Shown piece after piece: positions 20 through 31,635 of a DNA stretch of 31,635 nt; positions within the stretch are counted from its first letter, which is position 1; the number at the start of each line of letters is the position of its first letter. The stretch comes from a virus. Location: positions 1-31,635 of IMG/VR virus record IMGVR_UViG_3300037070_004394. The stretch is one strand, 5' to 3'. The position numbers were made by a program, and so were the translations under genes. The notes beneath the pieces are model-generated. The model searched no databases. It was given only the letters and a program-made list of their open reading frames with translations, and was not told the DNA's origin.

Positions 20-37
20 TGGATGCGTCCTTTCGAG

Positions 38-505: not shown

Positions 506-514
506 GGGGAGTCC

Positions 515-904: not shown

Positions 905-907
905 GGT

Positions 908-1363: not shown

Positions 1364-1375
1364 GGTCTGGGTCCC

Positions 1376-2602: not shown

Positions 2603-2617
2603 GTGTCAACCCCATGT

Positions 2618-2631: not shown

Positions 2632-2654
2632 TGCAGCGAAACTTGTTGGTTGTC

Positions 2655-5415: not shown

Positions 5416-5431
5416 CTTTCCGTGACCGTCC

Positions 5432-8706: not shown

Positions 8707-8728
8707 TTAGCCTCCGCTGATGGTGGCT

Positions 8729-8986
8729 TTATGCACCCGTTTCGAGGTCGATTGAGATGACATTGGAGTCCGGAACGAAGGTCTCCCGCCGCTCCATCTT
8801 GCCCTTCGAGTCGGGCCGCTCGTAGCGCACCAGGAGCCCGCCAGGGGTGCGATCGATGACGGCCCCCATATCGCCCGTGTTGAGAGTATTTTTCGTGACG
8901 CCGCCGTAGTTGACGACGTCTCGGGTCAGAAACCGCGTCACCTTCGGTCGCTTGGCTTCCTTCGCTTCTTTCGCAGGTTCGCTCAC
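8729..8986 (-). CDS. Small beta-rich hypothetical protein (85 aa)
   Basis: The GTG at 8986 overlaps the upstream stop (GTGA), giving a protein beginning V-S-E-P-A-K-E-A-K-E-A-K. After a Lys/Glu/Ala-rich leader comes a compact beta pattern (F-L-T-R-D-V-V-N-Y-G-G-V, then G-A-V-I-D-R-T-P-G-G-L-L-V-R-Y-E-R), which would suit a small SH3-like or barrel domain. A longer frame reaching 9064 is overlap with the next gene. Family and function are not recognised. Confidence 0.68.
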   Translation of the reverse strand: MSEPAKEAKEAKRPKVTRFLTRDVVNYGGVTKNTLNTGDMGAVIDRTPGGLLVRYERPDSKGKMERRETFVPDSNVISIDLETGA

Positions 8987-9504: not shown

Positions 9505-9866
9505 GAATGTCGCTGCGCATCGACTTCAAAAAATTGCTCGTTGTAGTAATGCCGCCCGCTCAACCACGCCCACACCGAGGCCAACCCATAAGCCGGAAGA
9601 AAGAGCGGCCCTAAACACCGGTACTGCCAAACATGCCGGAGCTCATGCGCCAGGACGGAGGCGTTCTCCCCGTCCCGAACAAAGACACACTCCCCGATGG
9701 TGATGCCTCCCCAGCTCTGGAAGAACCACGCCCAGAACCCCCAGGTCCTCGGAACGAAGACGAGGGCGCCACCGCGGACACCGTAGAATTTCCCGCCACC
9801 CAGGAGCGCGGCGAGCAGGCCGAGGAGGGTGTTGGGGCTGGTCCACATCGAGCCGGCGAGTCTCAT
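9501..9866 (-). CDS. Membrane-associated HExxH metallopeptidase-like protein
   Basis: The 121-residue product has hydrophobic N-terminal and central stretches, with a H-E-L-R-H motif at about residues 74-78 and a likely third zinc ligand in F-F-E-V-D-A (E114). H-E-x-x-H with a downstream Glu is the gluzincin layout. The order of hydrophobic helix, H-E-L-R-H-V-W-Q-Y, hydrophobic W-rich helix and E-V-D-A is that of small peptidase-like proteins seen in phages and bacteria. The context is early/middle phage genes, not lysis, so a host-envelope or host-protein target is only a guess. The ATG overlaps the upstream stop as ATGA. Confidence 0.75.
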   Translation of the reverse strand: MRLAGSMWTSPNTLLGLLAALLGGGKFYGVRGGALVFVPRTWGFWAWFFQSWGGITIGECVFVRDGENASVLAHELRHVWQYRCLGPLFLPAYGLASVWAWLSGRHYYNEQFFEVDAQRHS

Positions 9867-10228
9867 CGGCAGCCCCTGGACTCGTTAACGCTCTTGAACT
9901 CGGTTCCACCGTCCGCGAGCCGGCGGGTGTAGTTCCGATTCACGACGGTCGGCATACAGGTGACGAGGTGCTGCTCCTCCCACTCGCCATCGCAGCCCGC
10001 GGGTTGGCCGGCATCGGGCCCGTTGACCATCGTTCGGTAGACGGGAGCCGTGGCTCGGCAGAATGGGCCCCGGTCCTCAATCGCCCCGCCATCTCCCGGC
10101 ACCCAGCACCTTCCACAACCGTCAATCCATGCGACTTCAACGGAGGGGGCGATCTGGACGGACAGAAACTTGTCGTCCTTGCCCACTTTCCACCCAGCGA
10201 GTAGCAGCGCAACCAGGGCGAGCCTCAT
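9863..10228 (-). CDS. Exported Cys-rich hypothetical protein
   Basis: With the ATG at 10228 (GGAG at good distance and an ATGA overlap with the upstream stop) the product is 121 residues. It opens with M-R-L-A-L-V-A-L-L-L-A-G-W-K, a hydrophobic stretch that could be a signal peptide or membrane anchor, and then has about six cysteines in pairs (G-C-G-R-C-W, F-C, G-C, C-M-P, G-C-R). Even spacing of cysteines suggests disulfides in the periplasm. A GTG three codons earlier was rejected for lack of a ribosome-binding site. No family was recognised. Confidence 0.68.
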   Translation of the reverse strand: MRLALVALLLAGWKVGKDDKFLSVQIAPSVEVAWIDGCGRCWVPGDGGAIEDRGPFCRATAPVYRTMVNGPDAGQPAGCDGEWEEQHLVTCMPTVVNRNYTRRLADGGTEFKSVNESRGCR

Positions 10229-10407
10229 TTGCTCCACCTCTGAGGCTTCTTCTTCACCTCACAACTCGCCACCATCCCGAATTTCACTTTCGTAACCATC
10301 CTTTCCACTCCGCATTCAGAGCAGGTGAAGCGTTCGCCCTCTTTGGGTGGCTTCTCGAGCCAGTTGAGGGCCATGGCCTGACATTGCTGGCAGGCAAAGG
10401 CTGTCAT
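10225..10407 (-). CDS. 60-residue zinc-ribbon protein
   Basis: This short protein shows C-Q-Q-C near residues 6-9 and C-S-E-C-G near residues 29-33, a Cys4 zinc ribbon spaced by a basic and Pro-containing linker. Its C-terminus is Lys-rich (K-K-K-P-Q-R-W-S-K). Zinc ribbons of this size in phages often bind DNA, RNA polymerase or a larger partner. ATGA overlaps exist at both ends. It belongs to a scattered set of tiny Cys4 genes in the same operon. Confidence 0.75.
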   Translation of the reverse strand: MTAFACQQCQAMALNWLEKPPKEGERFTCSECGVERMVTKVKFGMVASCEVKKKPQRWSK

Positions 10408-10685
10408 CGCGGCTCGCCGCCGCCATAGGCACCCAGAAGGACGTCGATCATGTCCGGCCCGGGCGCGTCCGCTATCGGCTCATCGTCGAAACCCGTGATG
10501 CGCATGTTCCGGCTGGGCGCGTGGCACGTGATGTTGACGTACACCGGGCCGGGGTTCGTGATGTCCATGAACTGGGTGTCCAGGAAGAACCCGTCGAGGC
10601 GCGGCCGATTCTGATACCGGGCCACCTCTTCCTCTAGGCGGCGCCTCCCCTCCGTCCTGAACCATGGCTCGGCCCTGTTTCTCAC
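10404..10685 (-). CDS. Hypothetical protein (93 aa)
   Basis: The GTG overlaps the upstream stop by four bases. The 93-residue product has a charged N-terminal helix (R-R-R-L-E-E-E-V-A-R-Y) and a beta-rich middle (V-Y-V-N-I-T-C-H and M-R-I-T-G-F), ending in acidic and Gly-rich sequence. No motif for catalysis or metal binding stands out. No family was recognised. It sits among small accessory genes of the replication-linked segment. Confidence 0.65.
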   Translation of the reverse strand: MRNRAEPWFRTEGRRRLEEEVARYQNRPRLDGFFLDTQFMDITNPGPVYVNITCHAPSRNMRITGFDDEPIADAPGPDMIDVLLGAYGGGEPR

Positions 10686-10945
10686 CCCTCCATCTCCGTC
10701 ATGTGCCCATTCAAGTAGGGCCTCGGAGCTGAGTGCCGGCAGACGGCATGGAAGGTCCCGAAGCTCTCCTGGCTTCTCCAGATTCCGGGACTTGTCTCCC
10801 AGCGCTCGAGAATCCGGGCGCCGGTGGGGGTGGGCTCGAATTCGATGACGTCGTCGATTTCGACCCCCTCCTCGTCGAAGTAGCGGACTTCATTAGCAAG
10901 GCAGCCGCACGGGAGGGTGAAGGTGTCTGTGGAGCGGATTTTCAT
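10682..10945 (-). CDS. Hypothetical protein (87 aa)
   Basis: The ATG at 10945 overlaps the upstream 59-residue gene's stop as ATGA, and a TTG two codons earlier was judged less likely. The product carries L-P-C-G-C-L near residue 12, an acidic D-E-E-G-V-E-I-D-D-V-I-E-F stretch and C-R-H later, so it could bind metal, but Cys and His are too far apart to be sure. No family is recognised. Confidence 0.65.
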   Translation of the reverse strand: MKIRSTDTFTLPCGCLANEVRYFDEEGVEIDDVIEFEPTPTGARILERWETSPGIWRSQESFGTFHAVCRHSAPRPYLNGHMTEMEG

Positions 10946-11121
10946 GGCCAAGTGTCCGTTCGTTCGGTGATGGGTCGTTCCCGCCAGGCTTTACCCAGAA
11001 TGCCGAGGCGCTTTTGCCAGGCCTTGAACGAGCAGAAGCCGCACAACCCCGCGTGCTCGGGAAAGGCGATTTTGCGCGCCTCCTTCGCCTTGTGCTCGCA
11101 TCCATCCGTTCCGCACTTCAT
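10942..11121 (-). CDS. 59-residue zinc-finger protein
   Basis: Reading from the ATG at 11121, the 59-residue product begins M-K-C-G-T-D-G-C-E-H and later has C-G-F-C-S. This gives four Cys and one His in a C-x4-C...C-x2-C pattern with a basic body (W-Q-K-R-L-G, W-R-E-R). Both ends fit 4-base ATGA overlaps with known neighbours (10942-10945 and 11118-11121), which strongly supports it as a real gene despite its size. The fold resembles small treble-clef or zinc-ribbon DNA-binding domains. Confidence 0.75.
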   Translation of the reverse strand: MKCGTDGCEHKAKEARKIAFPEHAGLCGFCSFKAWQKRLGILGKAWRERPITERTDTWP

Positions 11122-11582
11122 GGCCTCGCCTCGATGGTGACTCTCACCGCGTATTCCTTCGGTTTCCCGCGCTCTTGGGAGTAGGTCCAGGTTGCTCGTG
11201 GGTCTCTGTCATTCGGAAGGCCCAGGCAGTCAGCGACAGAATCCCTGCACGATTTAAGGCATCCGCGGAGGTTGTCGTCGTCGAGCTCGCGCGGGGCGAT
11301 TCGTGTAAGCGTCACCGTGACGGGCAGGACCACCAGCGCGCACTTCGCCACGCCCATCCAAGCTATCGCCGCCCGCTCCCGTCCCGTCCGCTTAGCCCGA
11401 GTCGCCCAATGCTCCCGGACGTTCGAGGTTGAGACCGTCCGAATGGGAATCGTAAAAATGACCGGGAAGGGGCCTGGCTTGGCCGTGGCGAGCATGTCGG
11501 GGTCGCTGCACACCAAGAGGCCCGATGGGGTCTGCGAACGCGCCAGCATGGCACCCAGCGCGGCTAGCTTGGATTTCCTCAT
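11118..11582 (-). CDS. RusA-like Holliday junction resolvase
   Basis: The 154-residue product carries the RusA-type layout: a leading H-W-A-T-R-A-K segment near 59-65, then L-D-D-D-N-L (residues 100-105) with the catalytic acidic pair, a conserved Lys at 110 in C-L-K-S, D114 and the D-S-V-A-D-C-L-G motif near 114-121, then D-R-D-P and W-T-Y near the end. RusA cuts four-way junctions in a dimer using acidic residues and one Lys. The first 40 residues are an extension beyond the usual RusA length (about 120). The context next to replication genes fits resolution of recombination or packaging intermediates. Confidence 0.82.
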   Translation of the reverse strand: MRKSKLAALGAMLARSQTPSGLLVCSDPDMLATAKPGPFPVIFTIPIRTVSTSNVREHWATRAKRTGRERAAIAWMGVAKCALVVLPVTVTLTRIAPRELDDDNLRGCLKSCRDSVADCLGLPNDRDPRATWTYSQERGKPKEYAVRVTIEARP

Positions 11583-11698
11583 CGCCTCACCGCCAGCAAC
11601 ACGGTAATCACCAGAAGCTCGCCCGCGATGAAGACTCCCAGGCCGACAGCCCAGGCCATCATGTCGCGCCAGAATTGAAGGTAGGCCTCAGGAGTCAT
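11579..11698 (-). CDS. 39-residue single-span membrane protein
   Basis: The ATG at 11698 and stop at 11579 fit 4-base overlaps with both neighbours. The 39 residues contain a polar N-terminus (M-T-P-E-A-Y-L-Q-F-W-R-D) and then a hydrophobic span (W-A-V-G-L-G-V-F-I-A and L-V-I-T-V-L-L-A-V), ending R-R. One membrane helix with a positively charged end is expected. The function is unknown. Confidence 0.65.
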   Translation of the reverse strand: MTPEAYLQFWRDMMAWAVGLGVFIAGELLVITVLLAVRR

Positions 11699-12219
11699 GG
11701 TTTCGGCGCTTTCGGTGGCGCTTCGTTTGCGTCTGGGGATGGCTCTTTCGTGGCGGATTCCGTGGCGCCTCGCTTGAGTTTGCGAATCCAGTTCGCCTCG
11801 GCAAATGCCGTATCGGTGCAGTCCGCGCTCAGAACTTGGGCGCAGCGCTCAACCGCCTCGTTCCACCCGGCGAGGTATCCCGACTCGGATGCTTGGGCCA
11901 ACGCGTTCGCCGCAGCTATCTGCCCGTCCCTGGGGTCTGGGATGGGTGGGGAGGAGGAGAGGGCGGCACGCAGCAAGCATTCCGGCTTGTGCGCCTGTGG
12001 CCCCAGCTTCGCATCGCACGACGGGCACCAGTGAGGGCTCTCGCAGCTCTCCAGCGCCTCCCTCAACCTCGCCTCGCGCTCCGCCCCTTCCCGAACCTGG
12101 GCTTCGAGGGAGGAGATGCGCAGCGCGGACTGAAGCATGGACGCCTTCAGGTCTTCTCCGATTGCCCTCGCCTCGGCCACGGGGTCCCGCGCTACTGGCC
12201 CGTACTTGTCGTCGCTCAC
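11695..12219 (-). CDS. Coiled-coil protein with zinc-finger motif
   Basis: The GTG at 12219 overlaps the previous stop by four bases. The 174-residue product has a long alpha-helical region (residues 15-60) with heptad spacing, then W-C-P-S-C-D-A-K-L near residue 68 and H-K-P-E-C, a C-x2-C...H-x3-C set for one zinc, then another helical part and a Pro/Lys-rich tail. Coiled coil plus a zinc knuckle suggests an oligomeric scaffold or DNA-binding accessory. No specific family is recognised. Confidence 0.72.
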   Translation of the reverse strand: MSDDKYGPVARDPVAEARAIGEDLKASMLQSALRISSLEAQVREGAEREARLREALESCESPHWCPSCDAKLGPQAHKPECLLRAALSSSPPIPDPRDGQIAAANALAQASESGYLAGWNEAVERCAQVLSADCTDTAFAEANWIRKLKRGATESATKEPSPDANEAPPKAPKP

Positions 12220-12599
12220 GTCTTCACCTCCGGGTGGAGGGCCCGCCGAAGATTGCCGATGGTGACGTTCATCTTCAGGTCATGGTCCATGCCGTCCATG
12301 TAGTCTCCGATGTCCACCTGATGGAGCACGTCCGCGGCCAATGCTTCGAGCGCCTCCACCCGGGAGCGGAGGGCGAGACACTCCTTCAGAATCTTCCGGG
12401 CCTCGTCTGGCGCGTGCTTCGGGCAATCCATCGCCAAGGACACGTCCGGACACCAGCACGGGATTTCTCGCCGCCCAGCCGCAAGCCCGGCGTTGAATTC
12501 AGCGGCCCCGCAGGTGCATGGCTGGTTCCGACATCCGGGAGCCGTACACTCAGGGTCACCGCATGGCAACGACGCGCAATCCTTGTCGTGCTCCCTCAC
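12216..12599 (-). CDS. Cys-rich hypothetical protein with C-terminal helix
   Basis: The start at GTG 12599 is chosen because TTGGAGG lies just upstream and the codon overlaps the preceding gene's stop by four bases. The 127-residue product has ten or more cysteines in its first half (C-A-S-L-P-C-G-D-P-E-C, C-T-C-G, C-W-C-P, D-C-P-K-H), enough for two zinc sites. The second half is a helical segment with L-R-S-R-V-E-A-L-E-A-L-A. A longer frame from 12638 was rejected as it runs through the upstream gene. The family is not recognised. Confidence 0.72.
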   Translation of the reverse strand: MREHDKDCASLPCGDPECTAPGCRNQPCTCGAAEFNAGLAAGRREIPCWCPDVSLAMDCPKHAPDEARKILKECLALRSRVEALEALAADVLHQVDIGDYMDGMDHDLKMNVTIGNLRRALHPEVKT

Positions 12600-12748
12600 G
12601 GCACCAACCTCCAAGGCTTGGTAACGGCCTGCCCACACCTGGAACAGACCCCGATTTTAACGATGGGGATGAGCCCCTCCGAGTCGGGAATGTTCGGGGC
12701 TGAACAGGGGAAGAGTCGGCAGAGCCAGGCGAGCCAGCGGATTTTCAT
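12596..12748 (-). CDS. 50-residue zinc/membrane-type miniprotein
   Basis: Reading from ATG 12748 gives 50 residues with M-K-I-R-W-L-A-W-L-C-R-L-F at the N-terminus, a Pro-Asn-Ile-Pro-Asp linker, then C-S-R-C-G and a basic end. Both overlaps (ATGA with the initiator gene stop, GTGA into the next gene) support it as real. The N-terminus could be an amphipathic or membrane-contacting helix, and the C-S-R-C pair with upstream Cys could bind zinc. The function is unknown. Confidence 0.62.
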   Translation of the reverse strand: MKIRWLAWLCRLFPCSAPNIPDSEGLIPIVKIGVCSRCGQAVTKPWRLVP

Positions 12749-13743
12749 GCGGCCTCTTTCCGCCCACTCACCCAGGCCTCAATGAGCGCATTCGGGTCGT
12801 CGGCCGTAATGACCTCCCGAGCCGCGTCGGAGTTCTGCCATGCCACGCCGCATGGCGAGCACCAGCCCCCGGAGACGTTGGCCGTGGAGGCGCAGACCCG
12901 ACAGGCCGGAACGGGTGGAGCCGGTGCCTCGGCCGGGGGGACAAAGTCGCGCCACTTCTTCCGAAATTGAGCCCAGCGGTTCCGGTTCTTCATCCAGAAC
13001 GGGTCCACCAGAAAAGCGTTGTAGGTCCCCTTGAGCCGGTCGAGGCTCCCGACGACGGCCGACGCCTCGGCGAACCAGGCTTCGGTGTCTGGTGGGTCCA
13101 GGCTCAATTCCGGAATCAGGCCGGCCTGTTGCTCGCGTTCGCCTTGAGCCCAAAGAAAGAAAACCTCACCGGGCTTGAATCCTGGCTTGAGCGGGGCCGG
13201 CTCTTTTCTCCGTTCAGGCTTCGCATCAATCGGAAGCCGGAGACTTCCCATCGCGGAGATCGGATTCGGTTCTTCTTCTTTTGTTTTTATCTTCTTCTGC
13301 GTCTGCGTCTGCGTCTGGTGCGTCGGTTTCGCGTCGGGATTTGTCGGTTTGGTGTCGGAAACCGACGCACTTGGTGTCGGTTCCGCGTCGGTTTCCGCGC
13401 TTTTCCCGACACGGTTGCGTTTCCAGGTCCGTTTATACCGGTCCAGTCCGCGGATCCGGATGCCTCCGGACTCCAGCGCCTCCATCAGTCCGACGTCCGA
13501 CAGGGCATTGGCCAACTCCGCGCTCGACCCTTGAAACCGGAGCGCCCCTGCCAACATCGTTACCGCTCGAGGGTTGTCACAGACCCCGGTCGGCGCCTCA
13601 TCCTGCGGCCCGAGCTCGAGTCCCCATGCCCAGAGGTCGAGAATCAGCCCCAGACACTCCCTCTCCGGAATGGCCAAGAGCCCGGAAAGCATGCGGGCCT
13701 TGCTCCATGTTTCCTGCGTCACCTGAATGAACGGCAGTCGCAA
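12745..13743 (-). CDS. Replication initiator-like protein (phage O/DnaD-type)
   Basis: The 332-residue product has a helical N-terminal half (M-R-L-P-F-I-Q-V onward, W-S-K-A-R-M-L-S-G-L-L, A-N-A-L-S-D-V-G-L-M-E-A-L-E) that resembles the winged-helix replisome organisers and phage O-type initiators. A low-complexity polar linker (P-T-P-S-A, K-P-T, Q-T-Q-T-Q-T-Q-K-K) spans roughly 110-160. A C-terminal part with W-F-A-E-A and F-W-M-K-N-R-N-R-W-A-Q-F follows, ending in a C-R-V-C...C-S-P-C zinc pair. It starts at TTG 13743 with GAGGGGG six bases upstream. The linker-coding DNA carries iteron-like repeats, which supports an initiator role. The assignment comes from layout and position, not a confirmed domain match. 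Confidence 0.72.
   Translation of the reverse strand: MRLPFIQVTQETWSKARMLSGLLAIPERECLGLILDLWAWGLELGPQDEAPTGVCDNPRAVTMLAGALRFQGSSAELANALSDVGLMEALESGGIRIRGLDRYKRTWKRNRVGKSAETDAEPTPSASVSDTKPTNPDAKPTHQTQTQTQKKIKTKEEEPNPISAMGSLRLPIDAKPERRKEPAPLKPGFKPGEVFFLWAQGEREQQAGLIPELSLDPPDTEAWFAEASAVVGSLDRLKGTYNAFLVDPFWMKNRNRWAQFRKKWRDFVPPAEAPAPPVPACRVCASTANVSGGWCSPCGVAWQNSDAAREVITADDPNALIEAWVSGRKEAA
13265..13412. other. Candidate replication origin inside initiator gene
   Basis: Direct GTCGG cores begin at 13322, 13333, 13343, 13354, 13376 and 13387. The steps are 11, 10, 11, 22 and 11 bases, so they are in phase with the DNA helix and not multiples of three. The full-length form GCGTCGGTTTC occurs at 13320-13330 and 13385-13395, and the same unit is inverted at 13357-13368 as part of a GTCGG-AAA-CCGAC palindrome (13354-13366). 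To the left lies an AT-rich, strand-asymmetric tract (13271-13298; purine-rich on the minus strand) and three CTGCGT units. Iterons in the linker of the initiator gene beside an AT-rich purine tract match the lambda O/ori arrangement. Confidence 0.6.
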
Positions 13744-13766
13744 TTTCGCCCCCTCGAGCGGTTGAG

Positions 13767-13955
13767 TCAGTTAATCGAGCTGGAAAGCTTCTGGACCTGC
13801 CGGGCGGGCTCCTCATGTTCGAGGGCCTCCCCGTAACCATTGACTGGAACCAGGACGTCGCACCGGACGCAGCGGAACTTCCCCACCGGGACGCGCGCAC
13901 CCGCGGCAATCATCTTGGTTCCCTTGGCGGGGATGTGGGAGCCGAGGCACATCAT
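13767..13955 (-). CDS. 62-residue Cys-pair hypothetical protein
   Basis: The ATG at 13955 overlaps the methyltransferase stop by four bases. The product has M-C-L-G-S-H near the start and C-V-R-C-D about residue 29, giving three cysteines and a His that might bind a metal, around a beta-rich core (V-P-V-G-K-F-R-C and V-L-V-P-V-N-G-Y). A 23-base gap follows it before the initiator gene. Family unknown. Confidence 0.66.
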   Translation of the reverse strand: MMCLGSHIPAKGTKMIAAGARVPVGKFRCVRCDVLVPVNGYGEALEHEEPARQVQKLSSSIN

Positions 13956-14767
13956 GCGGCCTCCGCGTGGGCGACAATCCGCCGGCCGATGAATTCAGCG
14001 ACCTGGGGAACTACGGCGTTTCCGAGGCACCTAAGTCGGTCCACCCGAGAGGGAACCCCATGAGCCACTCGACCCACGTCGGGTTCAACGGCCCAGGTTC
14101 CTCCGAAGTCCTCGAGGCCAGGGCGGAAAAAGACGGGTAGCCGCCCTGACTCTGGTTCGGCCCGCCCTTCTCGCCATCGCTCGCTCGAGGCGTTGGCCAC
14201 ATTGACCTCCGAGCCATCGCGTCCAGACTCAGCCGCTCGGCCGCACCCGGGCTCGGGCTCTGATTCATGCCGTACGGTGTCGCGCTCGGAGTAGGCAACC
14301 AGGAAGAGCCGATCACGTCGGTGATGGGCGCCAAGGGCTGCCGCTGGGACGCAGTCCCATTCCGCATCGAACCCGCTCGAGGCCAGGTCCCCGAGAATTC
14401 GCTCAACCCCCCGAACAAGGAGAGCTGCCACGTTCTCCACGAGGACGTAGCGGGGTCGAAGCTCGCGAATGAGCCGGAGGTATTCTCGCCAGAGACCGGA
14501 GCGCTCTCCGTCGAGGCCAGCGCCCTTGCCGGCAAGGCTGATGTCCTGACAAGGGAAGCCTCCACACAAGACGTCAACGGGGGGGGCATCACATCCTCGC
14601 AGGGTGCGGACGTCGTCGAAGAGGCGAGCTTCCGGCCAGTGCTTCCGAAGGACTTTTTGCGCATAGGGGTCGCACTCCACCTGCCAGAGGACCTTCATCC
14701 CGGCCCGCTCCAGGCCCAGGTCTAGACCACCGATTCCAGAGAAGAGACTCCCAACGGTGAGCGTCAC
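13952..14767 (-). CDS. C5-cytosine DNA methyltransferase
   Basis: With GTG 14767 (GTGA overlap) the protein is 271 residues. Motif I F-S-G-I-G-G-L-D-L-G is at 9-18, motif IV G-G-F-P-C-Q-D-I-S with the catalytic Cys near 73, motif VI E-N-V near 111, motif VIII H-R-R-D-R-L-F near 149-155 and motifs IX-X R-L-R-C-L-G-N-A-V-V-P-Q-V-A-E near the C-terminus. The enzyme moves a methyl group from S-adenosylmethionine to C5 of cytosine. The target-recognition region (about 160-245) is short. An in-frame extension to 14914 was rejected because it is Gly/Arg low complexity across the previous gene. No cognate endonuclease gene is adjacent, so it is probably an orphan that shields phage DNA. Confidence 0.93.
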   Translation of the reverse strand: MTLTVGSLFSGIGGLDLGLERAGMKVLWQVECDPYAQKVLRKHWPEARLFDDVRTLRGCDAPPVDVLCGGFPCQDISLAGKGAGLDGERSGLWREYLRLIRELRPRYVLVENVAALLVRGVERILGDLASSGFDAEWDCVPAAALGAHHRRDRLFLVAYSERDTVRHESEPEPGCGRAAESGRDGSEVNVANASSERWREGRAEPESGRLPVFFRPGLEDFGGTWAVEPDVGRVAHGVPSRVDRLRCLGNAVVPQVAEFIGRRIVAHAEAA

Positions 14768-19031: not shown

Positions 19032-19223
19032 TTACGCCGCCTCCGTCTTCGGAAGTAGCTTGGGCACCAGCACTGAAATCCGCTCCACCACCGTCCTCGC
19101 CCGTTCCAAATCCGTCAGAACGTCGTCCGTGTCTCCAATCACCGCCGATTGCATGGCCATCGCGAGGAGCTGATTCAGGAAACCTAGCTCTAGCCGGATG
19201 AGGGCGGTTTGATTCGCGCTCAT
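19032..19223 (-). CDS. Small helical protein (63 aa)
   Basis: The ATG at 19223 overlaps the helix-turn-helix gene stop (ATGA), giving 63 residues beginning M-S-A-N-Q-T-A-L-I-R. It is almost all alpha-helical with two amphipathic stretches (L-N-Q-L-L-A-M-A-M-Q and V-V-E-R-I-S-V-L-V-P) separated by D-T-D-D. A longer frame to 19271 is rejected. No family is recognised; a dimerising cofactor is possible. Confidence 0.65.
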   Translation of the reverse strand: MSANQTALIRLELGFLNQLLAMAMQSAVIGDTDDVLTDLERARTVVERISVLVPKLLPKTEAA

Positions 19224-19417
19224 GACGCCCTGCCCTTCAGAAACCGGGCGAGGTCCGAGGGATAGACCCACATCGCCGGGCTCCCACGGAATTGATGGGC
19301 CACCAGCGCCCCGAAGCGAGCCCAGCGGCGAACGGTAGCGGCCGACACGCCGAGAGACTCAGCCACCTCGGACGGACGAAAGGGCACCTCGGTCCGGACC
19401 AGTCGGAGGGCTTTCAT
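19220..19417 (-). CDS. MerR/excisionase-like helix-turn-helix protein
   Basis: The 65-residue product has V-A-E-S-L-G-V-S-A-A-T-V-R-R-W-A-R (about 18-34), the MerR/excisionase helix-turn-helix signature with the recognition helix ending in W-A-R, then a wing (G-S-P-A-M-W-V-Y-P-S-D-L-A-R-F-L). The size is that of phage excisionase or AlpA-type regulators. No integrase was found in the window, so transcriptional control is more likely than excision. ATGA overlaps at both ends. Confidence 0.82.
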   Translation of the reverse strand: MKALRLVRTEVPFRPSEVAESLGVSAATVRRWARFGALVAHQFRGSPAMWVYPSDLARFLKGRAS

Positions 19418-19947
19418 AGCCCACCTCCGGCCGACACCACTTCCGAGGCGAGAGAGGTCCTGGAGGGTCGGATAATGTTGCGGGCGCGCTTGGGGGCCGA
19501 AACGTGCCCCAGGTCAGCTAGTACCCGGTCCAGGAGCGCCAACACCTGAACCCTGGAGCGGAGGGGGTGGGTGTCCCAAATTCCAATCTCCCCTACGTGC
19601 TTGCGGAGGGCTCGCCGGGCGTACTCCCCCTCAATCTCTCCCTTCCCTGCCTGGATGATTGCCCCGAGGAGGGACCATGAAACGGGCGTCCCGAACCCGG
19701 ACTCCGAAAACTCCCGCCCATCGGCATCCCGCGCCAGCCCGGCGCGACACCAGCCCCGGCGAATGAGTCTCCGCACCTCCCTGAGGACCGGGATTGCCGC
19801 CGCGCGTTCTTCCGCGGCCGACTTCGGGACATATCGGCACTCGGAGATTCTCGCGGAAATGCGGGAATGCTTGCCAGCCGCACAGGGGACTGCGCCAGAA
19901 AACCAATTAAGACGGGGGTTTGTTGTCCTGCTCTTGTTTGACAGCAC
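19414..19947 (-). CDS. DUF6197-type phage protein
   Basis: The central part (R-R-L-I-R-R-G-W-C-R-A-G-L-A-R-D-A-D-G near 59-77, then S-W-S-L-L-G-A-I and W-D-T-H-P-L-R-S-R with a L-A-L-L-D-R-V-L-A-D helix) resembles the DUF6197 family seen in phages of Actinobacteria and others, whose function is unknown. The N-terminal 40 residues look unlike a protein domain. The GTG at 19947 ends a strong hairpin, and another GTG in G-A-G-V-R-R (codon 58, preceded by AGGGAG) could be the true start. It leads the whole left operon. Confidence 0.68.
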   Translation of the reverse strand: MLSNKSRTTNPRLNWFSGAVPCAAGKHSRISARISECRYVPKSAAEERAAAIPVLREVRRLIRRGWCRAGLARDADGREFSESGFGTPVSWSLLGAIIQAGKGEIEGEYARRALRKHVGEIGIWDTHPLRSRVQVLALLDRVLADLGHVSAPKRARNIIRPSRTSLASEVVSAGGGL

Positions 19948-20090
19948 CGGAGTCGCTCCGGTGGATGAGACACGTTATGTCAACTTCGACGAACGCGCCT
20001 CATCCACCAATCAACGGGTTGAGTGAAAATGCCCGCCGTCGCGTTCTCTAGTCCTACCGCCAGGCAGGATGTTGAAAACGGAGGCGGGCA
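19945..20090. promoter_or_regulatory. Structured intergenic region with three inverted repeats
   Basis: This is the only long stretch without a convincing gene (19948-20243). It holds an 8-bp stem with 3-base loop, CACCGGAG-TCG-CTCCGGTG (19945-19963), a 9-bp inverted repeat GTGGATGAG/CTCATCCAC (19961-19969 and 19999-20007), and an 8-bp inverted repeat TGCCCGCC/GGCGGGCA (20030-20037 and 20083-20090). A TTGACA sequence on the minus strand (19983-19978) sits inside the second repeat, but no -10 match was seen. It may be the promoter/operator region or an RNA leader for the left operon. Confidence 0.5.
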
Positions 20091-20243: not shown

Positions 20244-20453
20244 TTACTTCTCGGATTTACGCTCCTTTTGCCAAGTCTCGAACGCGCTGCGGCAAAAGTG
20301 AACCACCACGTCGTTGCGGCTGAGCTTCTCCCCTTCCGCCCGCTTCGCGTTCTCCACCTCCACCACCATATCCAGGGCCTTCGCTAGGTCTGCTGGGCAT
20401 CGGACCTTGAGGTCTACAGGTGGCGGGCCGGCCTTCGGAATGACTGGGCTCAA
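20244..20453 (-). CDS. Ribbon-helix-helix regulator (Arc/MetJ-like)
   Basis: I prefer a TTG start at 20453 because AAGGAGG lies seven bases upstream, giving 69 residues. The product has P-P-V-D-L-K-V-R-C-P as the beta strand, then L-A-K-A-L-D-M-V-V-E-V-E-N and L-S-R-N-D-V-V-V-H-F-C-R-S-A-F-E as two helices, the Arc/ribbon-helix-helix order, with a basic tail. Such proteins bind operators as dimers. An ATG at 20573 and a frame start at 20639 exist but would overlap the divergent promoter and give unlikely N-terminal sequence. The gene diverges from the plus-strand early operon, so it is a good candidate for its repressor. Confidence 0.7.
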   Translation of the reverse strand: MSPVIPKAGPPPVDLKVRCPADLAKALDMVVEVENAKRAEGEKLSRNDVVVHFCRSAFETWQKERKSEK

Positions 20454-20539
20454 TCTCTTCCCCTCCTTAAGCGCCGCATTTCGCACGGGTCTACTCCTTG
20501 TAGTTGGTCCGCTTGCCTCCCGCCACACTGTCACGTATT

Positions 20540-20577
20540 TGCCCCAGTTGACAAGAGGTAGAGCCTGGGGCATTAAT
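20540..20577 (+). promoter_or_regulatory. Early promoter with inverted-repeat operator
   Basis: A perfect -35 TTGACA (20548-20553) is followed after 18 bases by ATTAAT (20572-20577) as -10. The 8-bp inverted repeat TGCCCCAG (20540-20547) and CTGGGGCA (20565-20572) brackets the -35 box; its right half reaches the -10. A dimeric or tetrameric repressor at these half-sites would block RNA polymerase. Transcription would start near 20584 and reach the first early gene at 20606. Confidence 0.7.
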
Positions 20578-20605
20578 TTACCCCTCACCGCCAGGAGACA
20601 ACACA

Positions 20606-20830
20606 ATGGACCCATCGCTCGCCGAAACGCTCGCCGCACTCACCAGGGCCAAGCTGAATCTAGACAACGCCATCGTCTACGAAGACGCCTGCATTAAAGG
20701 GACGGCCGGGGGCAGCGACATCACCAAGGCCAACTGGGTCCGTCGCAGGGCGGAGCTGGAGTTCATGCTGGCGGCGAAGTTCGTCGTCTTTGCGGTGGGC
20801 GCAGAAGACGTTGGCGCGGTGGCCCAGTGA
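20606..20830 (+). CDS. First early gene, hypothetical (74 aa)
   Basis: AGGAG (20593-20597) lies eight bases before the ATG. The 74-residue product is mostly alpha-helical (L-A-E-T-L-A-A-L-T-R-A-K-L-N, V-R-R-R-A-E-L-E-F-M-L-A-A-K) with Ala-rich ends. No known domain is visible. It is the first gene behind the strongest promoter in the window, so it should be made early and in quantity. Confidence 0.75.
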   Translation: MDPSLAETLAALTRAKLNLDNAIVYEDACIKGTAGGSDITKANWVRRRAELEFMLAAKFVVFAVGAEDVGAVAQ

Positions 20831-21129
20831 TGGTCTCCGCCCTCATCAAGCTTGACCGGACCAGGTGCAGCTGCTTCCGCCGGGACGTGGCCTGCAATTG
20901 CGACTTCCTCGAGGTCGAGCACCACGTCGTCGGGGTGGTGGACGACATCGGGAATGAGTGGAGCGCCGAAGTCCTGGGTGTGGCCGATGACCGGGGAGAC
21001 GTCATCTCCCTCATGGGTCGCGAGCTGACCTGGGCAGAGCAGGCCTTGATTGAGGAGGCGGAGCGGATTGAGCGGCTCTCGAATGAAGCCCGCATCCCAT
21101 ACACGTTGCCGGAGGGTGCGCGATGCTAA
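20830..21129 (+). CDS. Early hypothetical protein with Cys cluster
   Basis: The ATG at 20830 shares a base with the previous stop (TGATG); a GTG three bases earlier is possible. The product (99 residues) has R-C-S-C-F near residue 12 and C-N-C-D near 22, four cysteines that may bind zinc, followed by a beta-rich region (V-V-G-V-V-D-D-I, V-L-G-V-A-D-D-R-G-D-V-I) and a C-terminal helix. Its last codons overlap the recombinase start by seven bases. Family not recognised. Confidence 0.72.
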   Translation: MVSALIKLDRTRCSCFRRDVACNCDFLEVEHHVVGVVDDIGNEWSAEVLGVADDRGDVISLMGRELTWAEQALIEEAERIERLSNEARIPYTLPEGARC

Positions 21130-22049
21130 CGGACGAAGAGAAGAAGATGGTGGGCGGGTCGGACGGCTCCGCCATAGCCGGGCTCAATCCGAACAAGTCC
21201 CCGCACGCCGTGTGGCGTCGAATCGTCGAGGGCTTCGACGAGCCGGCGGGCAAGGCCGCGCGCCGGGGCACACTGATGGAGCCGGTCATCAGATCCATGG
21301 CGGCCGAAGACTTCGGGCTTACTCTTCTGGGTCCCCGGAAACTGAAGGACCCGCGCCGCGCTTTCATGCGCTCCAATCTGGATGATGTGAACCAGGCCGA
21401 CGACGGCCCGGAGGTGGTGGAGTTCAAGAGTGTGAGCGGCTTCGCGGCCAAGGAGTACGGGGAGGCGGACGACGCCTTCCCCCTTATTCACCACTGCCAG
21501 GTACAGATTTACCTAGCCCTCTCTGGCTTCAAGCGCGCCCGCCTCATTGCCCTGATTGGGATGGATGACCTCCGACAGTACTTCGTCGAGTCGAACCCGG
21601 AGATTCAGGGGATGCTCTTCGAGCATATCGACCGCTTCTGGGTTGACCACGTATTGACCCGAAAGCCCCCACCCGAAGACGCCTCGGAGGGCTGCGCGGA
21701 GTGGTTGGCGGCGCGTTACCCGGTGGCCAAGGGACCGGTTGTGCAGGCCACGCCCGAGGCCGAGCGCTGGGCGACTCAACTCCAGGCGGCGAAGCTGGCA
21801 AAGGATGCCGCCGAGTACCGGGAGGAAGAGGCAAAGAATCACCTCAAGGCGCTTTGTGGCGACGCGTCGAGCATTGAGGGCCGCGGGTGGCGGGCCGCGT
21901 GGTCGAACGTGAAGGGCCGGACGGCGCTCGAAGTTGAGGCGCTGTTGAAGGAGTTGAATCCTCCCGCCGCAATCCTCGCCAAGCACACCATCCAGAAGCC
22001 CGGTTATCGGGCCTTTCGGTCTACCTTTCAAAACGGAGAGTCAAAATGA
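21123..22049 (+). CDS. YqaJ-like recombination exonuclease
   Basis: This 308-residue enzyme belongs to the YqaJ viral recombinase/exonuclease group (PD-(D/E)xK fold). It has G-G-S-D-G-S-A-I-A-G-L-N-P near the start, L-M-E-P with an acidic residue near 53, R-S-N-L-D-D near 84-88 and the E-F-K core (100-102). Like lambda exonuclease, it would resect one strand of DNA so that the partner annealing protein can act. The C-terminal 100 residues are helical and may contact ERF, which follows with a 4-base overlap. GGAGGG lies seven bases upstream of the ATG. Confidence 0.9.
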   Translation: MLTDEEKKMVGGSDGSAIAGLNPNKSPHAVWRRIVEGFDEPAGKAARRGTLMEPVIRSMAAEDFGLTLLGPRKLKDPRRAFMRSNLDDVNQADDGPEVVEFKSVSGFAAKEYGEADDAFPLIHHCQVQIYLALSGFKRARLIALIGMDDLRQYFVESNPEIQGMLFEHIDRFWVDHVLTRKPPPEDASEGCAEWLAARYPVAKGPVVQATPEAERWATQLQAAKLAKDAAEYREEEAKNHLKALCGDASSIEGRGWRAAWSNVKGRTALEVEALLKELNPPAAILAKHTIQKPGYRAFRSTFQNGESK

Positions 22050-22792
22050 GCGACGCAATCGAAGAGAAGATGGAATCAGCCACTATCGGAGCACTCGCTG
22101 CAGCGCTGGCCAAGGCGCAAGGGATGATGCACGGCGCCAAGCGGGAGAGCATCAACCCCCAGTTCCAGGGGAAGAAATACGCTGACCTCGCGAGCGTCTG
22201 GGAGGCGTGCCGCGCCCCTCTTTCAGCGAACGGGCTGGCCGTGACGCAGACCGTGAGCTCTGGCAACGGAGGCGTCCGAGTCACCACCACGCTCCTTCAT
22301 TCTTCGGGTGAGTGGATGCGCGACCGATGCACATTCCCCGTGACTCAGAACACGGCCCAGGGCTACGGGTCCGCCATCACGTACGGGCGGAGGTATGCCC
22401 TCGCGGCACTGGTGGGTGTTGCCCCGGACGATGACGACGACGGCAATGCGGCAAGCGCTGGCGCCCCACAGCAGGGGCAGGTCCGGGCTCAGCCTCAGAT
22501 GTCCGCTCGCTCCACCACGGAAGCGGTCAAAGAGAAGCTCGCCGCAAAGCTGGGCGCATCGGCCGTGAAGGTGGTCCCGGTCAGCGCCCCGGAAGAGAAC
22601 GGGGACGTCTCGGCGGTCATCACCTTCACCAAGCATAAGGGGAAGAGGTTGTCCGACGTGGATGACCGGACCGTGGCGTGGTTCCTCGAGAAGGCAGAAG
22701 AGAAGGCGATGGACACCGCCGACAAGTGGCACGCCAAGAATCTCCAGTGGCTTCAGGCGGTGCGCGAAGAGATGGCTCGGAGGTCCCAGTGA
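22046..22792 (+). CDS. erf: ERF single-strand annealing protein with ExoX-like C-terminus
   Basis: The first 125 residues match ERF: A-L-A-K-A-Q-G near 21-27, N-P-Q-F-Q-G-K-K-Y-A-D-L near 37-48, and the signature G-S-A-I-T-Y-G-R-R-Y-A-L-A-A-L-V-G near 108-124. ERF anneals complementary strands and pairs with the exonuclease just upstream. After an acidic/Gln-rich linker the C-terminal 60 residues (I-T-F-T-K-H-K-G-K-R-L-S-D-V, then W-F-L-E-K-A) resemble the ExoX-like C-terminal domain, often seen fused to phage annealing or nuclease proteins. GGAG precedes the ATG. Confidence 0.92.
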   Translation: MSDAIEEKMESATIGALAAALAKAQGMMHGAKRESINPQFQGKKYADLASVWEACRAPLSANGLAVTQTVSSGNGGVRVTTTLLHSSGEWMRDRCTFPVTQNTAQGYGSAITYGRRYALAALVGVAPDDDDDGNAASAGAPQQGQVRAQPQMSARSTTEAVKEKLAAKLGASAVKVVPVSAPEENGDVSAVITFTKHKGKRLSDVDDRTVAWFLEKAEEKAMDTADKWHAKNLQWLQAVREEMARRSQ

Positions 22793-26948: not shown

Positions 26949-27148
26949 CGCTTCCCCTTCTTTCGGAGGGCCTCGATGAAGGCGGCTTTTGACTTGTCCG
27001 GAGAGTCTTTTTCTTCCTCTTCCTCCGGAGCCTCCTCTTCCGCATCCATCGCGGCATCCAGGGCGATTCCACCCCGGCCGCAGTGCTCGCAGACTTCATC
27101 CTCTTCGTACTCGGCCGGTTCGGCTTCTTGCATCGAAGGCTGGAGCAT
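26945..27148 (-). CDS. Acidic small protein with zinc knuckle (67 aa)
   Basis: The ATG at 27148 follows the previous stop as TGATG. The 67-residue product has V-C-E-H-C-G-R-G-G (C-x2-C with a His) in the first third, then a very acidic run (D-A-E-E-E-A-P-E-E-E-E-E-K), and a basic amphipathic end (A-F-I-E-A-L-R-K-K-G-K-R). The longer frame to 27577 is rejected as shadow. It may be a binding adaptor for the large internal protein. Unrecognised family. Confidence 0.65.
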   Translation of the reverse strand: MLQPSMQEAEPAEYEEDEVCEHCGRGGIALDAAMDAEEEAPEEEEEKDSPDKSKAAFIEALRKKGKR

Positions 27149-29973
27149 CACTGGTCTCCTCGAGCCTGAGCCTGTTGCATGGGCGTCAGGGAACGATTCG
27201 CAATGGTTAGCTTGGAGGCCGCTTGCGCCGGAGGTGCACCACCCGGCGTGCTCTGGGAAGCTCGAGCCGATGGACCCTTGATGGCCGCCTGATTCCGAAG
27301 GATGACTTCCGGCTTCAGGGACCCGTCCAGGTCCGTTCCCAGTAACAGACTTAGCATGAGACGCGACTTGTACGGAACGGGGCCCCGGTGGCTGGTGAGC
27401 TTGTCCAGGGCGGACTCCTGGATTTTCTTGAACAGGTCCGGGTAGACGGTCTGGACCGCCTCCACCGCCTCCGGGGTGAGGGTGCCAGCCGCTGCCTGCT
27501 TCAGGATGGAGACGGGGGACTGAACCGCCTCGTAGTAGCGGTTGAACTTGCCGATCTCCGTCTGGCTCGGGACCCACTTCGCGGCCAGGGGGCCGATGTT
27601 GGGCGGCTTCGGCATCTTGGCCTGAAGGAAGGCCATCCCTCGGGCGCTGGATACCTGCAGCGCCTGGGCGACGTTGGGGGCGTGCTCCTGGAGCCCCTCG
27701 GTCTGCTTCGTCAGGCGCTCGTTCAGGGCATCGGGCTGGGCCGCCTGGGTAATTTTGTCGGCCCGGCGGAGGAAGGTCGCCCGGGCCTGCTCTGGGGTGT
27801 TTCCGAAGCTGTTGGCAATGCCGGCGGCGACTTCGCTCCGGCCAATCCTCGCAGCCTTTGGTGAGCCTCGGACCAGCACCCCCGCTCCGGTGTCGATGGC
27901 CCGGGAGATGGTCTGCCCCGCGCTGTCCAGGGCCGAGAGGATGGCCACCATCCGGGGAACGCTCTTGACCGTCCGACCGACGTTTAGCGTCGCCTTAACG
28001 GCGCTGGTGACGGCCCCAGGGAGGACCATCCCCGCGGCGGCCAAGGCTGCTGTCTCGCCCATTCCGACGGGTCCGGAGTTGGGAATACCAACGCCTCCGG
28101 ACTTGAGGTACTTCATCGTCGCGGCAGCTTCGCCCGCGAGTTGTTGTTCCGCAGCCAGCTTCTCGGCTCGCCCGACGAGCTCGTCCACCGCGCTTCGGTT
28201 GAACTTACTCAGCGGCGCTGACTTGGCGGATGCCTCGGCCTCGTTGATCACCTTCTTGGAAGCGGCGACCACCTGCCCCCACGCCTCGGCCCTGGAAACG
28301 CCCTTGTCGTTGGCGAGAGAGTTCAGCCATGTGGTTACCTTGGTGGAGGGGATTTGGCCGGCGCTGTCCATGAAGGCCTTCCGGAAAGCGCCTCCTTTCC
28401 CGACGAGCTGCAGCCATTCCGCCTGGGCCTCGTCGAGCGCGGCCCGGCGAGCTCCGGCGACTCCGAAAACAGACTCGTCCGTCAGGGTGCGCTTGACCGT
28501 CCGACGCACCTCCTTCAGCAGGGCAACCGAGTTCCGGTCCGAGAAACCCAGCGCCATCGCGTCTTTGCCGTAGGGAATGGCTTCGTCCAGGCTCTGACGC
28601 AGCGTCTTCAGCCGATTGAACGCGGCGAGCGGCTCGAGCCGGTCTCCTGCGTCGCGGATGAGCCCTTCCCGGACCTTCTCCATGTGACGGGCCATCGCCG
28701 AGCTGTGGAGCTCCGGCTCCGCGCGCATGGCTGCAATGGCCTCGTCCATCTTGCTCAGGGCTGACTCGTACCCGGTCTTGACGGCGGCGCCATCGGCGGT
28801 GGCGAGCAATACCTCTGCCTCCCGTGGGGCGAGATCTATGTTGATGCTTCTCAGGACGTCATCGGTCTTGTCGAGGACCGACTGCATCCCCTCGCGGAGT
28901 TCGCCCGTTGCCCGCTGAAGCGCCTTCGGGTCCGTGTGGATCTTGCTGACATTCGCAGCCAGGAAGTCGGCGGTCTCTGGGGACGTCCGCGCTAGCAGCT
29001 TGGTTGTCCCAGGGAACGCGGTCTCGAGCTCCTTTAGCTTGCTACCGTTCTTAAGGACCCACTGCGCCATCTCCGGAGTGGCGTTGGTCATCTCCTGGGT
29101 GATGCCCGGCATTTGCTTCTCGAGCAGCGACACCTCAGCACGGTGCTCGATGATCAGAGTAGCAACGTCTGGGGCGGTTCCGGCGGCTTCCGCGGCTCGG
29201 ACGGCTACCCCCTCAACGCCCTGCTTTCCCTTCCTGAAGAGGCCGCTGATGGCCTCTCTGGCCTTCCCAATCGCGACGGGGGCGCCAACCTCTGCGACGC
29301 CTGCCAGCATTCCGAAGCCGCCACCCAAGGCGGCGTTCAGGCCGATTTCAGCGATCGCGGACTGGGCGGTGAGGTTCGGGTCGCCTAGGGCGGCCTCGTG
29401 CACGACGTTGCCCACACCATAGGCCGCGCCCTCAACGGCCCCGCCTGCGGCCACTGCCGCCCCCTTGGCGAGCATCTGACCGCCCAGGGTCGTCGCCTCG
29501 GGGAGGAGTGCCTTCGCGCCAGCAGTGACCGCCTGGCCGGCTCTGGAGATGAGCGCCGGGGCAGAGAGGCTGGCAGCAGTCTTGGCGAGGCCCATGGCCC
29601 CAACTTCGGCGGCTGCAGCTGGGGCTGAGGCCCCCATGGTGAGAAGAAGCGGGGCGGCGATGCCGACACCTGTCCCGACCATGGCCGCCGTCGGGTTGAC
29701 CTCTTCGCGCGCCTTGATGGCCTTGGGGTCGGCCCCAAGCGCCACCTGTGCCGGGGTGGACAGCCCCAGTGTCATGGCCCTGCCGGCCGCTTCCGTGCCG
29801 GCCATCAGAGCCTGAGAAGTGGTCCCGTACTTCTTCTCGTTCTCGTGAGCGGCGATCTCTTCCGGCGTCCCAACTCGGAAGCCCGCCCCGAGCGCCCCGT
29901 CGACGTCCGCGGACGGCAGGTATCCGGACTCGCCGTCCGGACTGACGACGAAAACTTTGCCAGGAGCCGCCAC
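27148..29973 (-). CDS. Large internal virion / ejection-protein candidate (941 aa)
   Basis: The 941-residue product has an N-terminal 40-residue beta part, then a region of Ala/Gly-rich hydrophobic helices (roughly 85-235: V-G-I-A-A-P-L-L-L-T-M-G-A, A-A-A-E-V-G-A-M-G-L, A-L-G-G-G-F-G-M-L-A-G) that could enter a membrane. Long amphipathic alpha-helical domains make up the rest, with further Gly/Ala helices near 650-690. No lysozyme-type catalytic motif was seen. Very large, helical proteins with membrane-active stretches match podovirus internal core proteins that form the DNA ejection channel (as gp15/gp16 of T7). It could also be a tape measure, but no tail-tube gene is nearby. Confidence 0.72.
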   Translation of the reverse strand: MAAPGKVFVVSPDGESGYLPSADVDGALGAGFRVGTPEEIAAHENEKKYGTTSQALMAGTEAAGRAMTLGLSTPAQVALGADPKAIKAREEVNPTAAMVGTGVGIAAPLLLTMGASAPAAAAEVGAMGLAKTAASLSAPALISRAGQAVTAGAKALLPEATTLGGQMLAKGAAVAAGGAVEGAAYGVGNVVHEAALGDPNLTAQSAIAEIGLNAALGGGFGMLAGVAEVGAPVAIGKAREAISGLFRKGKQGVEGVAVRAAEAAGTAPDVATLIIEHRAEVSLLEKQMPGITQEMTNATPEMAQWVLKNGSKLKELETAFPGTTKLLARTSPETADFLAANVSKIHTDPKALQRATGELREGMQSVLDKTDDVLRSINIDLAPREAEVLLATADGAAVKTGYESALSKMDEAIAAMRAEPELHSSAMARHMEKVREGLIRDAGDRLEPLAAFNRLKTLRQSLDEAIPYGKDAMALGFSDRNSVALLKEVRRTVKRTLTDESVFGVAGARRAALDEAQAEWLQLVGKGGAFRKAFMDSAGQIPSTKVTTWLNSLANDKGVSRAEAWGQVVAASKKVINEAEASAKSAPLSKFNRSAVDELVGRAEKLAAEQQLAGEAAATMKYLKSGGVGIPNSGPVGMGETAALAAAGMVLPGAVTSAVKATLNVGRTVKSVPRMVAILSALDSAGQTISRAIDTGAGVLVRGSPKAARIGRSEVAAGIANSFGNTPEQARATFLRRADKITQAAQPDALNERLTKQTEGLQEHAPNVAQALQVSSARGMAFLQAKMPKPPNIGPLAAKWVPSQTEIGKFNRYYEAVQSPVSILKQAAAGTLTPEAVEAVQTVYPDLFKKIQESALDKLTSHRGPVPYKSRLMLSLLLGTDLDGSLKPEVILRNQAAIKGPSARASQSTPGGAPPAQAASKLTIANRSLTPMQQAQARGDQ

Positions 29974-29975
29974 TT

Positions 29976-31635
29976 CTACTGCTCCAGCTTGGCGGCGAAC
30001 TCGCCCGGGTCTTTGTAGGTGCGGGGGTCCATGTAGGACTTCAGGACTCCGCGCATCTTCCGTTCAACGGACTTCTTGAACTGTTCCATCTTCGCTTGCT
30101 GGTTTCCGAGAGCAGTTGCGTTCCCCATCATCAGCTCGAGCATCTGCTGTGAGCCCTTGTCGAGCGCGCCGAATCTGTAGAGCTGATTGGCGTTCCCCAT
30201 GATGGCTCCCTGAAGCGTTTCCATTCTGGCTCGCGCGTCCGTGGGCGCCTTTTCGACGCCGTAGGTCTTCCGGAGACTGATGAGCTCGTTGAGGTCCGCA
30301 ACCAGGCTCCCATGCGCCGCCGTGGCTTCTCGGGCAACGGCGGCGGCTTTTGGATCCAGCGCGAACCCGTAGCCTGGGACGAATAGCTCTGCGTTTCCGT
30401 CCTTCGCTGACGCCGCCGCCTTGAGACGGTCCGAAGCAATTTTCTCCTGCTCCAGGAAGAGGCCCATGTCTTGGACGGCCACCGTGTGTCGCTCGGTCGC
30501 CGACTTCTCCTTCATCGCCGCAACGGATGCCATCGCGGCCGCAGTGGCGCGCTGGTCCCCGAATTTCGCGGACGCGGCCTCGAGTTGGGCGGCGATGGCG
30601 TCTCGGGCGTCCGCCTTGACGAGCTGCTGAGCGGTCGCCATGTCCCGACCCATCTGCATGTGTTGGGCGAGCGCGTTCTCCTTCTTGGAGAGGTTGGTTT
30701 TCTGCGCGTCGATGTCTCGGTCAATAGCCTTGTCGATGATGGACAGGGCCATATTGGGCCCTCCCGCCAGACCCTGGCCGATGCCGCTCAGGATGATAGC
30801 GATGGACGAGCCGATCTGCTGGCCGGTGGTTCGGCTTTCCCAGAGCTTGTTCGGGTTGATTTGGCCCGTCAGGACGTCGTTGTAGAGCTTGTCCCCGCGC
30901 GCCTGGTGGGCGGCGTTGATGTCGGCGAATTTCTGGACGCGAGCTTCCTGCTCGAGCGCCGCGGCCTGGCGAATTTGGGACTCTGCCTGCGCCTGCTTCT
31001 GTTGTGCCTCGAGGCCCGTTCTTGCCGCCTGGATGCCTTCGAGCTCGGCACCCTTGATTTCCGCCTGGGTGTTCGGCATCCGCGGAGCCCCGCCCATTCC
31101 CGGCATGCCTGGCGAACCACCAGACGTTGGGACCGGAGCGGGAGGGGGAGCGGCAAGGGTGGGCGCTGCGACAGGCTCCGTGGCCGGCGCTGGGATGGAG
31201 ACGTACCTTTGCTCCACCGGTGCGGTCGCCGAGGACTGCAGGGAGAAGGTCTGGGTCGGCGCGATGGTTTCCGGGAATTCGCTCGGGTCCAAGGGCGGGC
31301 GTGCCGATGGGTCCGCAATCGAGAACTCGCTGGGTCCGGCTTGCGGTGCTGGCTGTCCGCCCTGCAAAGCCATCATCTGACTCCAGGTGGCGTCGTCGAA
31401 GACGGGCTCTGCCTGGGGGGCGACCACTCCGCCGCCCGCGAAGTGCTGGACCACCCGATTTCGCATCTCGGGACTGAGCCCGTTCTTCGCTACCCGGAAC
31501 TCTCCCTTGCCGTCGTCCAGGCGGTAGAAGTCCTCGCCGTCCTCGAGCATCTTGTACTTCGCGAGGGGAGGAACCTCACCGCCTTCGCTCGCGGTAATGA
31601 GGCCGCCCAGGAGGTTCCCACCCGCAGTACCAGCT
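29976..31635 (-). CDS. Virion-associated protein, 5' end beyond the window
   Basis: The frame remains open to the window edge: upstream of the ATG at 31550 the codons read G-G-L-I-T-A-S-E-G-G-E-V-P-P-L-A-K-Y-K, with no ribosome-binding site before the ATG, so the start lies outside. About 550 residues are visible. The first part has acidic and Gly-rich sequence, a Pro/Ala-rich linker (about 70-170 of the visible part), then long alpha-helical, coiled-coil-like regions (A-R-T-G-L-E-A-Q-Q-K-Q-A-Q-A, A-T-A-A-A-M-A-S-V-A-A-M). It precedes the 941-residue protein by two bases, so a second internal or tail-hub component is likely. Confidence 0.75.
   Translation of the reverse strand, partial: AGTAGGNLLGGLITASEGGEVPPLAKYKMLEDGEDFYRLDDGKGEFRVAKNGLSPEMRNRVVQHFAGGGVVAPQAEPVFDDATWSQMMALQGGQPAPQAGPSEFSIADPSARPPLDPSEFPETIAPTQTFSLQSSATAPVEQRYVSIPAPATEPVAAPTLAAPPPAPVPTSGGSPGMPGMGGAPRMPNTQAEIKGAELEGIQAARTGLEAQQKQAQAESQIRQAAALEQEARVQKFADINAAHQARGDKLYNDVLTGQINPNKLWESRTTGQQIGSSIAIILSGIGQGLAGGPNMALSIIDKAIDRDIDAQKTNLSKKENALAQHMQMGRDMATAQQLVKADARDAIAAQLEAASAKFGDQRATAAAMASVAAMKEKSATERHTVAVQDMGLFLEQEKIASDRLKAAASAKDGNAELFVPGYGFALDPKAAAVAREATAAHGSLVADLNELISLRKTYGVEKAPTDARARMETLQGAIMGNANQLYRFGALDKGSQQMLELMMGNATALGNQQAKMEQFKKSVERKMRGVLKSYMDPRTYKDPGEFAAKLEQ

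Follow-up and report, generated by a model that had tools for sequence, protein, structure and literature searches.

The 153-bp gap between a small leftward gene and the rightward YqaJ/ERF recombination operon of a phage with no detectable integrase is best explained, tentatively, as a bidirectional promoter under a single operator, where the product of the small gene would act as an autorepressor of its own gene and of the operon. We infer each component of this circuit, namely, promoter use, the ribbon-helix-helix (RHH) fold of the protein, its binding to an inverted repeat, and repression rather than activation.

In the proposed mechanism, the gap would function as one promoter arranged around the near-symmetric -10 region ATTAATTTA (20572-20580). 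Rightward transcription, directed by TTGACA at 20548, would start near 20584-20586 and enter the YqaJ/ERF operon, while leftward transcription, directed by TTGTCT at 20601-20596, would start near 20565-20568 and produce the small RHH-like protein. This protein, probably as two dimers with one on each arm, would then occupy the inverted repeat at 20540-20572 and cover the rightward -35 and spacer together with the leftward start site. Once enough protein had accumulated, it would silence both the gene that encodes it and the recombination operon.

The virus and its genome

The window, that is, the whole stretch of DNA analyzed, is the IMG/VR virus record IMGVR_UViG_3300037070_004394 of 31,635 bases. 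A second IMG/VR record, IMGVR_UViG_3300037071_004601 (L103/L104), matches window positions 1-14237 at 99.99% and positions 27083-31631 at 99.6%, and the ~6.9 kb between its two matched stretches adds structural genes missing from the window. Because this second record overlaps both window ends and fills the gap between them, the two together appear to complete a genome of ~38.6 kb that is circular or circularly permuted. The genome encodes a portal, a large terminase, and a major head protein, as well as a helicase, DNA methyltransferases, endonuclease VII, and a RusA-like resolvase; the genes for its YqaJ/RecE-like exonuclease and its ERF annealing protein belong to a short operon read rightward (Table 1). 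A search for tRNA genes found none, and a peptide-pattern scan of GTDB contigs found no relative of the portal.

Neither tyrosine integrase (PF00589) nor serine resolvase (PF00239) was matched in either overlapping contig, with controls positive. A lysogeny-type switch is unsupported because these integrase and resolvase families were not found in contigs that appear to cover the genome. The first-pass annotation had read the arrangement as an autoregulated switch; its divergent units and its repeat over a promoter-grade site stand and are joined by a predicted minus-strand promoter, whereas the lysogeny sense of the word finds no support. In this phage without detectable integrase, a small MerR/excisionase-like HTH_17 gene is present at window positions 19220-19417 on the minus strand (E=5.2e-7), and the same gene also matches MerR_1 (E=2.3e-5).

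Table 1. Features of the divergent region and the rightward operon (window coordinates)
Feature	Position	Strand	Basis or remark
Predicted 69-aa RHH-like regulator gene, TTG start	20244..20453	-	codon model, ribosome-binding site, predicted helices
AAGGAGG ribosome-binding site of the TTG start	20462..20468	-	8 nt upstream of TTG 20453
Alternative in-frame GTG start, 80-aa product	20484..20486	-	AAGGAG at 20499-20494, 7 nt away
Inverted repeat, left arm TGCCCCAG	20540..20547		read from sequence
Predicted rightward -35, TTGACA	20548..20553	+	best plus-strand promoter-like site of the window
Inverted repeat, right arm CTGGGGCA	20565..20572		read from sequence
Predicted shared AT-rich -10 region ATTAATTTA	20572..20580		best bidirectional site of the window
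Predicted leftward -35, TTGTCT	20601-20596	-	ranks 2-3 on the minus strand of the window
AGGAG ribosome-binding site, first rightward gene	20593..20597	+	hybrid energy -7.4 kcal/mol
First rightward operon gene, 74 aa	20606..20830	+	codon model 0.51 bits/codon; no family match
Second rightward operon gene, 100 aa	20827..21129	+	codon model 0.35 bits/codon
YqaJ/RecE-like exonuclease gene	21123..22049	+	PF09588 E=2.9e-13; phrog_434 E=1.1e-59
ERF single-strand annealing protein gene	22046..22792	+	PF04404 E=7.8e-22

A predicted bidirectional promoter

Direct reading finds the repeat, TTGACA, ATTAAT, and the TTG start behind AAGGAGG at the positions that the first-pass annotation had given them. 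TTGACA is flush with the left arm of the repeat, and ATTAAT (20572-20577), whose first A is also the last base of the right arm, follows after a spacer of 18 bp. A strict consensus scan did not report a promoter in the divergent gap, since ATTAAT, which has no -11 A, agrees with TATAAT at only 4/6 positions. In a position-weight scan that used an E. coli-like matrix from general knowledge, which may not be that of the host, TTGACA-N18-ATTAAT ranks first on the plus strand of the window, and only 0.5% of shuffles of the region (n=1000) reach its score, in agreement with the promoter originally proposed there.

The earlier account missed a predicted minus-strand promoter of the regulator gene over the same -10, and it is this second promoter that makes autoregulation physically plausible. 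The minus-strand score is matched by 3.1% of the region shuffles and the joint score by 0/1000; with a shared -10, the two-way score is 10.1-10.8 here vs 7.1 for the next site in the window. The -10 region can be read in two ways: ATTAAT at 20572-20577 may serve both strands with 18-bp spacers and without a -11A, or TAATTT (plus strand, 20574-20579) and TAAATT (minus strand, 20580-20575), both of which fit TANNNT, may be used with spacers of 20 and 15 bp, respectively. Under both readings the predicted starts lie 18-19 bp apart, which, together with the shared symmetric -10, places the site at sequence level within the criterion for bidirectional sigma70 promoters (7-25 bp). The predicted two-way promoter thus exceeds chance and is better supported than had been claimed.

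The inverted repeat overlaps the predicted promoters of both directions. Its left arm abuts the rightward -35. Its right arm, set within the rightward spacer, reaches the -10 and takes in the predicted leftward start. Just past the -10, CCCC at 20581-20584 is complementary to GGGG at 20567-20570 in the right arm, forming GGGG-N10-CCCC around ATTAATTTA, and may possibly constitute a third half-site. Farther away, a gap of 296 bp that follows the regulator gene downstream contains a perfect 8-bp hairpin, CACCGGAG-TCG-CTCCGGTG, flanked by two facing copies of TTGACA, one on the plus and one on the minus strand (window 19938-19983).

Operator or coincidence

The arms TGCCCCAG and CTGGGGCA form a perfect inverted repeat of 8 bp per arm; they are 17 bp apart, or 25 bp from center to center. 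Taken alone, the repeat is weak, near-chance evidence (P about 0.03), because 3.2% of dinucleotide-shuffled versions of the intergenic region (153 bp) contain a perfect 8-bp repeat with a spacer of 3-30 and 36 such perfect repeats are found window-wide (25.6 +/- 6.2 expected). A second operator copy with <=2 mismatches was absent from both contigs of the virus, and a search of IMG/VR for the exact operator pattern returned none. Another exact 8-bp inverted repeat, CTTTTGCC/GGCAAAAG (20265-20272/20291-20298, spacer 18), sits within the coding sequence of the regulator gene and is probably due to chance, though its geometry resembles that of the proposed operator.

The main rival, a possible one, keeps the bidirectional promoter and dismisses the repeat as chance: the small protein would bind other DNA or have another function, and the operon would be early, constitutive, and transcribed by host RNA polymerase. 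The abundance of such repeats, down to the one inside the regulator gene, speaks for this explanation, as do the lack of a second operator copy, an arm spacing unusual for RHH proteins, and the lack of a significant sequence match for the RHH fold; it sits poorly with the fact that both arms abut promoter hexamers and with the recurrence of a divergent DNA-binding gene beside the ERF operon in L142, L009, and L015. It is unlikely that the repeat is instead the operator of a host protein or of the phage HTH_17 protein and that the small protein is a mere neighbor, even though the HTH_17 gene has HTH_17 and MerR_1 matches, a widely gapped 8-bp palindrome would fit many dimeric regulators, and the plus-strand promoter is readable as over-spaced (18-20 bp). 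MerR-type sites are located within the -35/-10 spacer, whereas the arms here flank the -35, and the HTH_17 gene lies ~1 kb off in another unit.

Two further explanations would deprive the repeat of any role as a DNA site. That the regulator gene begins at ATG 20573, yielding 109 aa and turning the repeat into coding sequence, is very improbable: the minus-strand frame is open to 20639 and GAGGGG stands upstream (hybrid energy -10.7 kcal/mol), but the ATG lies at or upstream of the predicted minus-strand transcript start, and this start is rejected because of codon usage, the codons of 20454-20573 scoring -0.13 bits/codon, like out-of-frame sequence, vs 0.31 for the 69-aa part. That the repeat works as an RNA hairpin in the regulator leader is scarcely credible. 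Its arms are complementary and could be transcribed if the minus-strand transcript began upstream of 20572, but the minimum-energy fold of the 119-nt leader leaves the two arms unpaired with each other, and a hairpin role is rejected because the leader does not exceed its shuffles in structure (z -0.64). Rfam had no match anywhere in the window.

The putative regulator gene and its product

With 0.31 bits/codon vs 0.28 for reference genes, the 69-aa frame is coding-like. TTG had been named its best start, and its AAGGAGG is indeed the best ribosome-binding site on offer (-13.2 kcal/mol, near the 1st percentile among random 22-mers); the in-frame GTG at 20486, whose AAGGAG has a hybrid energy of -8.4 kcal/mol, nevertheless competes, and an 80-aa product from it is possible and a real competitor.

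The assignment of this product to the RHH fold is weaker than in the earlier account. At full length, the 69-aa protein matched no profile in Pfam, NCBIfam, or PHROGs, and a significant RHH profile match, taken as the criterion of family membership, was not among its results; PF01402 had no match in the record, with 14/14 controls positive. A hand-trimmed 49-aa core produced sub-threshold matches to RHH_1 (E=0.2; 12.1 bits, cut-off 20.5) and to YlcI/YnfO NF041551 (E=0.087) and to no other Pfam or NCBIfam family, while ten shuffled cores gave a single match across both libraries, which was not to an RHH family. The RHH ribbon forms only between two chains. A single-sequence AF2 model (pLDDT 71) consists of an N-terminal coil and helices at 21-40 and 46-66, placed as they might be in an isolated RHH chain. 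A Foldseek search with this model returned no RHH protein among its matches and none that was meaningful. What stands of the assignment is a coding-like frame with RHH-compatible secondary structure, and the protein is probably an RHH protein. Searches for homologues of the predicted 69-aa protein yielded no usable match in IMG/VR, GTDB contigs, INPHARED phages, PLSDB, or PDB, and across these collections it is an orphan.

Comparison with known systems

The regulation of bidirectional promoters has been studied only recently (PMC12825309). In E. coli, the commonest separation of their starts is 18 bp (PMC12825309; PMC10268837), and one studied case, acrR/acrAB, encodes an autorepressor, the acrR product (PMC12825309). 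The predicted phage promoter resembles those of the acrR/acrAB type in its near-symmetric -10, its -35 on each side, its predicted starts ~18 bp apart, and a product that is possibly an autorepressor. It differs from the E. coli bidirectional promoters in being predicted from phage sequence and in having hexamers or spacers that are sub-optimal in either reading.

Among RHH proteins, AmrZ binds half-sites with a 5-bp linker and autoregulates at its own promoter (PMC3325190). The phage protein is akin to P22 Arc and Mnt and to AmrZ in its small size and its presumed short strand followed by two helices, autoregulation being here only proposed, and unlike them in the lack of a significant sequence or fold match and in arms 25 bp apart vs about 10. 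That the arms are unusually far apart for a single Arc-type dimer had been noticed before and holds: 25 bp, or ~2.4 helical turns, is wider than Arc/AmrZ sites, which argues against one Arc-like dimer and favors two dimers or another protein. The E. coli NikR site has a 16-bp gap. NikR, an RHH tetramer whose two RHH domains bind the separated half-sites of a pseudo-palindrome (PMC9860126), offers an RHH precedent for such separation, but it does so through a C-terminal metal-binding tetramer domain that is absent from the 69-aa protein.

It is doubtful that the protein represents an orphan RHH subfamily whose dimer pair settles on arms 25 bp apart, with one operator closing both directions of a shared-(-10) promoter; if true, the recombination operon of a phage without integrase would be governed by a minimal circuit, autoregulated in both directions. 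The autorepressor reading, if true, would contribute a small orphan repressor as well as a phage bidirectional promoter under one operator, and it would show how an integrase-less phage limits its recombination genes. It would leave the overall understanding of phage gene control as it is. A self-controlling circuit of this type would be sensible yet ordinary in kind, and its repressor appears less certain than originally thought.

Relatives and a recurring layout

A small divergent gene for a DNA-binding protein beside the ERF operon is, as judged from gene order, a recurring layout that employs unrelated folds, because divergent HTH_3-type genes stand beside the ERF operon in three other loci. 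In G054, a structural relative with a portal 61% identical, the ERF operon adjoins a divergent XRE-type HTH gene (L142:7280-7564, HTH_3 E=7.8e-8), and in L009 and L015 that position is taken by HTH_3-like genes, likewise divergent (E=2.2e-4 and 1e-3). The HTH gene is divergent from the operon in all three, like the gene described here, which is RHH-like and without sequence homology to them.

Other relatives share different parts of the genome. Portal relatives (L107-L139) have the structural genes in common and lack the early module, and the YqaJ query had no relative in IMG/VR and only distant exonucleases in INPHARED. Helicase relatives (L023-L102) have the helicase and methyltransferase genes in common and lack the regulator. 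The pair of helicase and DNA methyltransferase genes is common to at least 80 viral contigs without the rest of the early region, which suggests a cassette moving as a unit. The divergent gap of L057 holds no comparable repeat; the first gene of its YqaJ operon (L057:1662-1859) is RHH-like by eye only. In or near the ERF/YqaJ region of another phage, L006:4392-4559 resembles CopG/FitA RHH proteins (E=3e-4).
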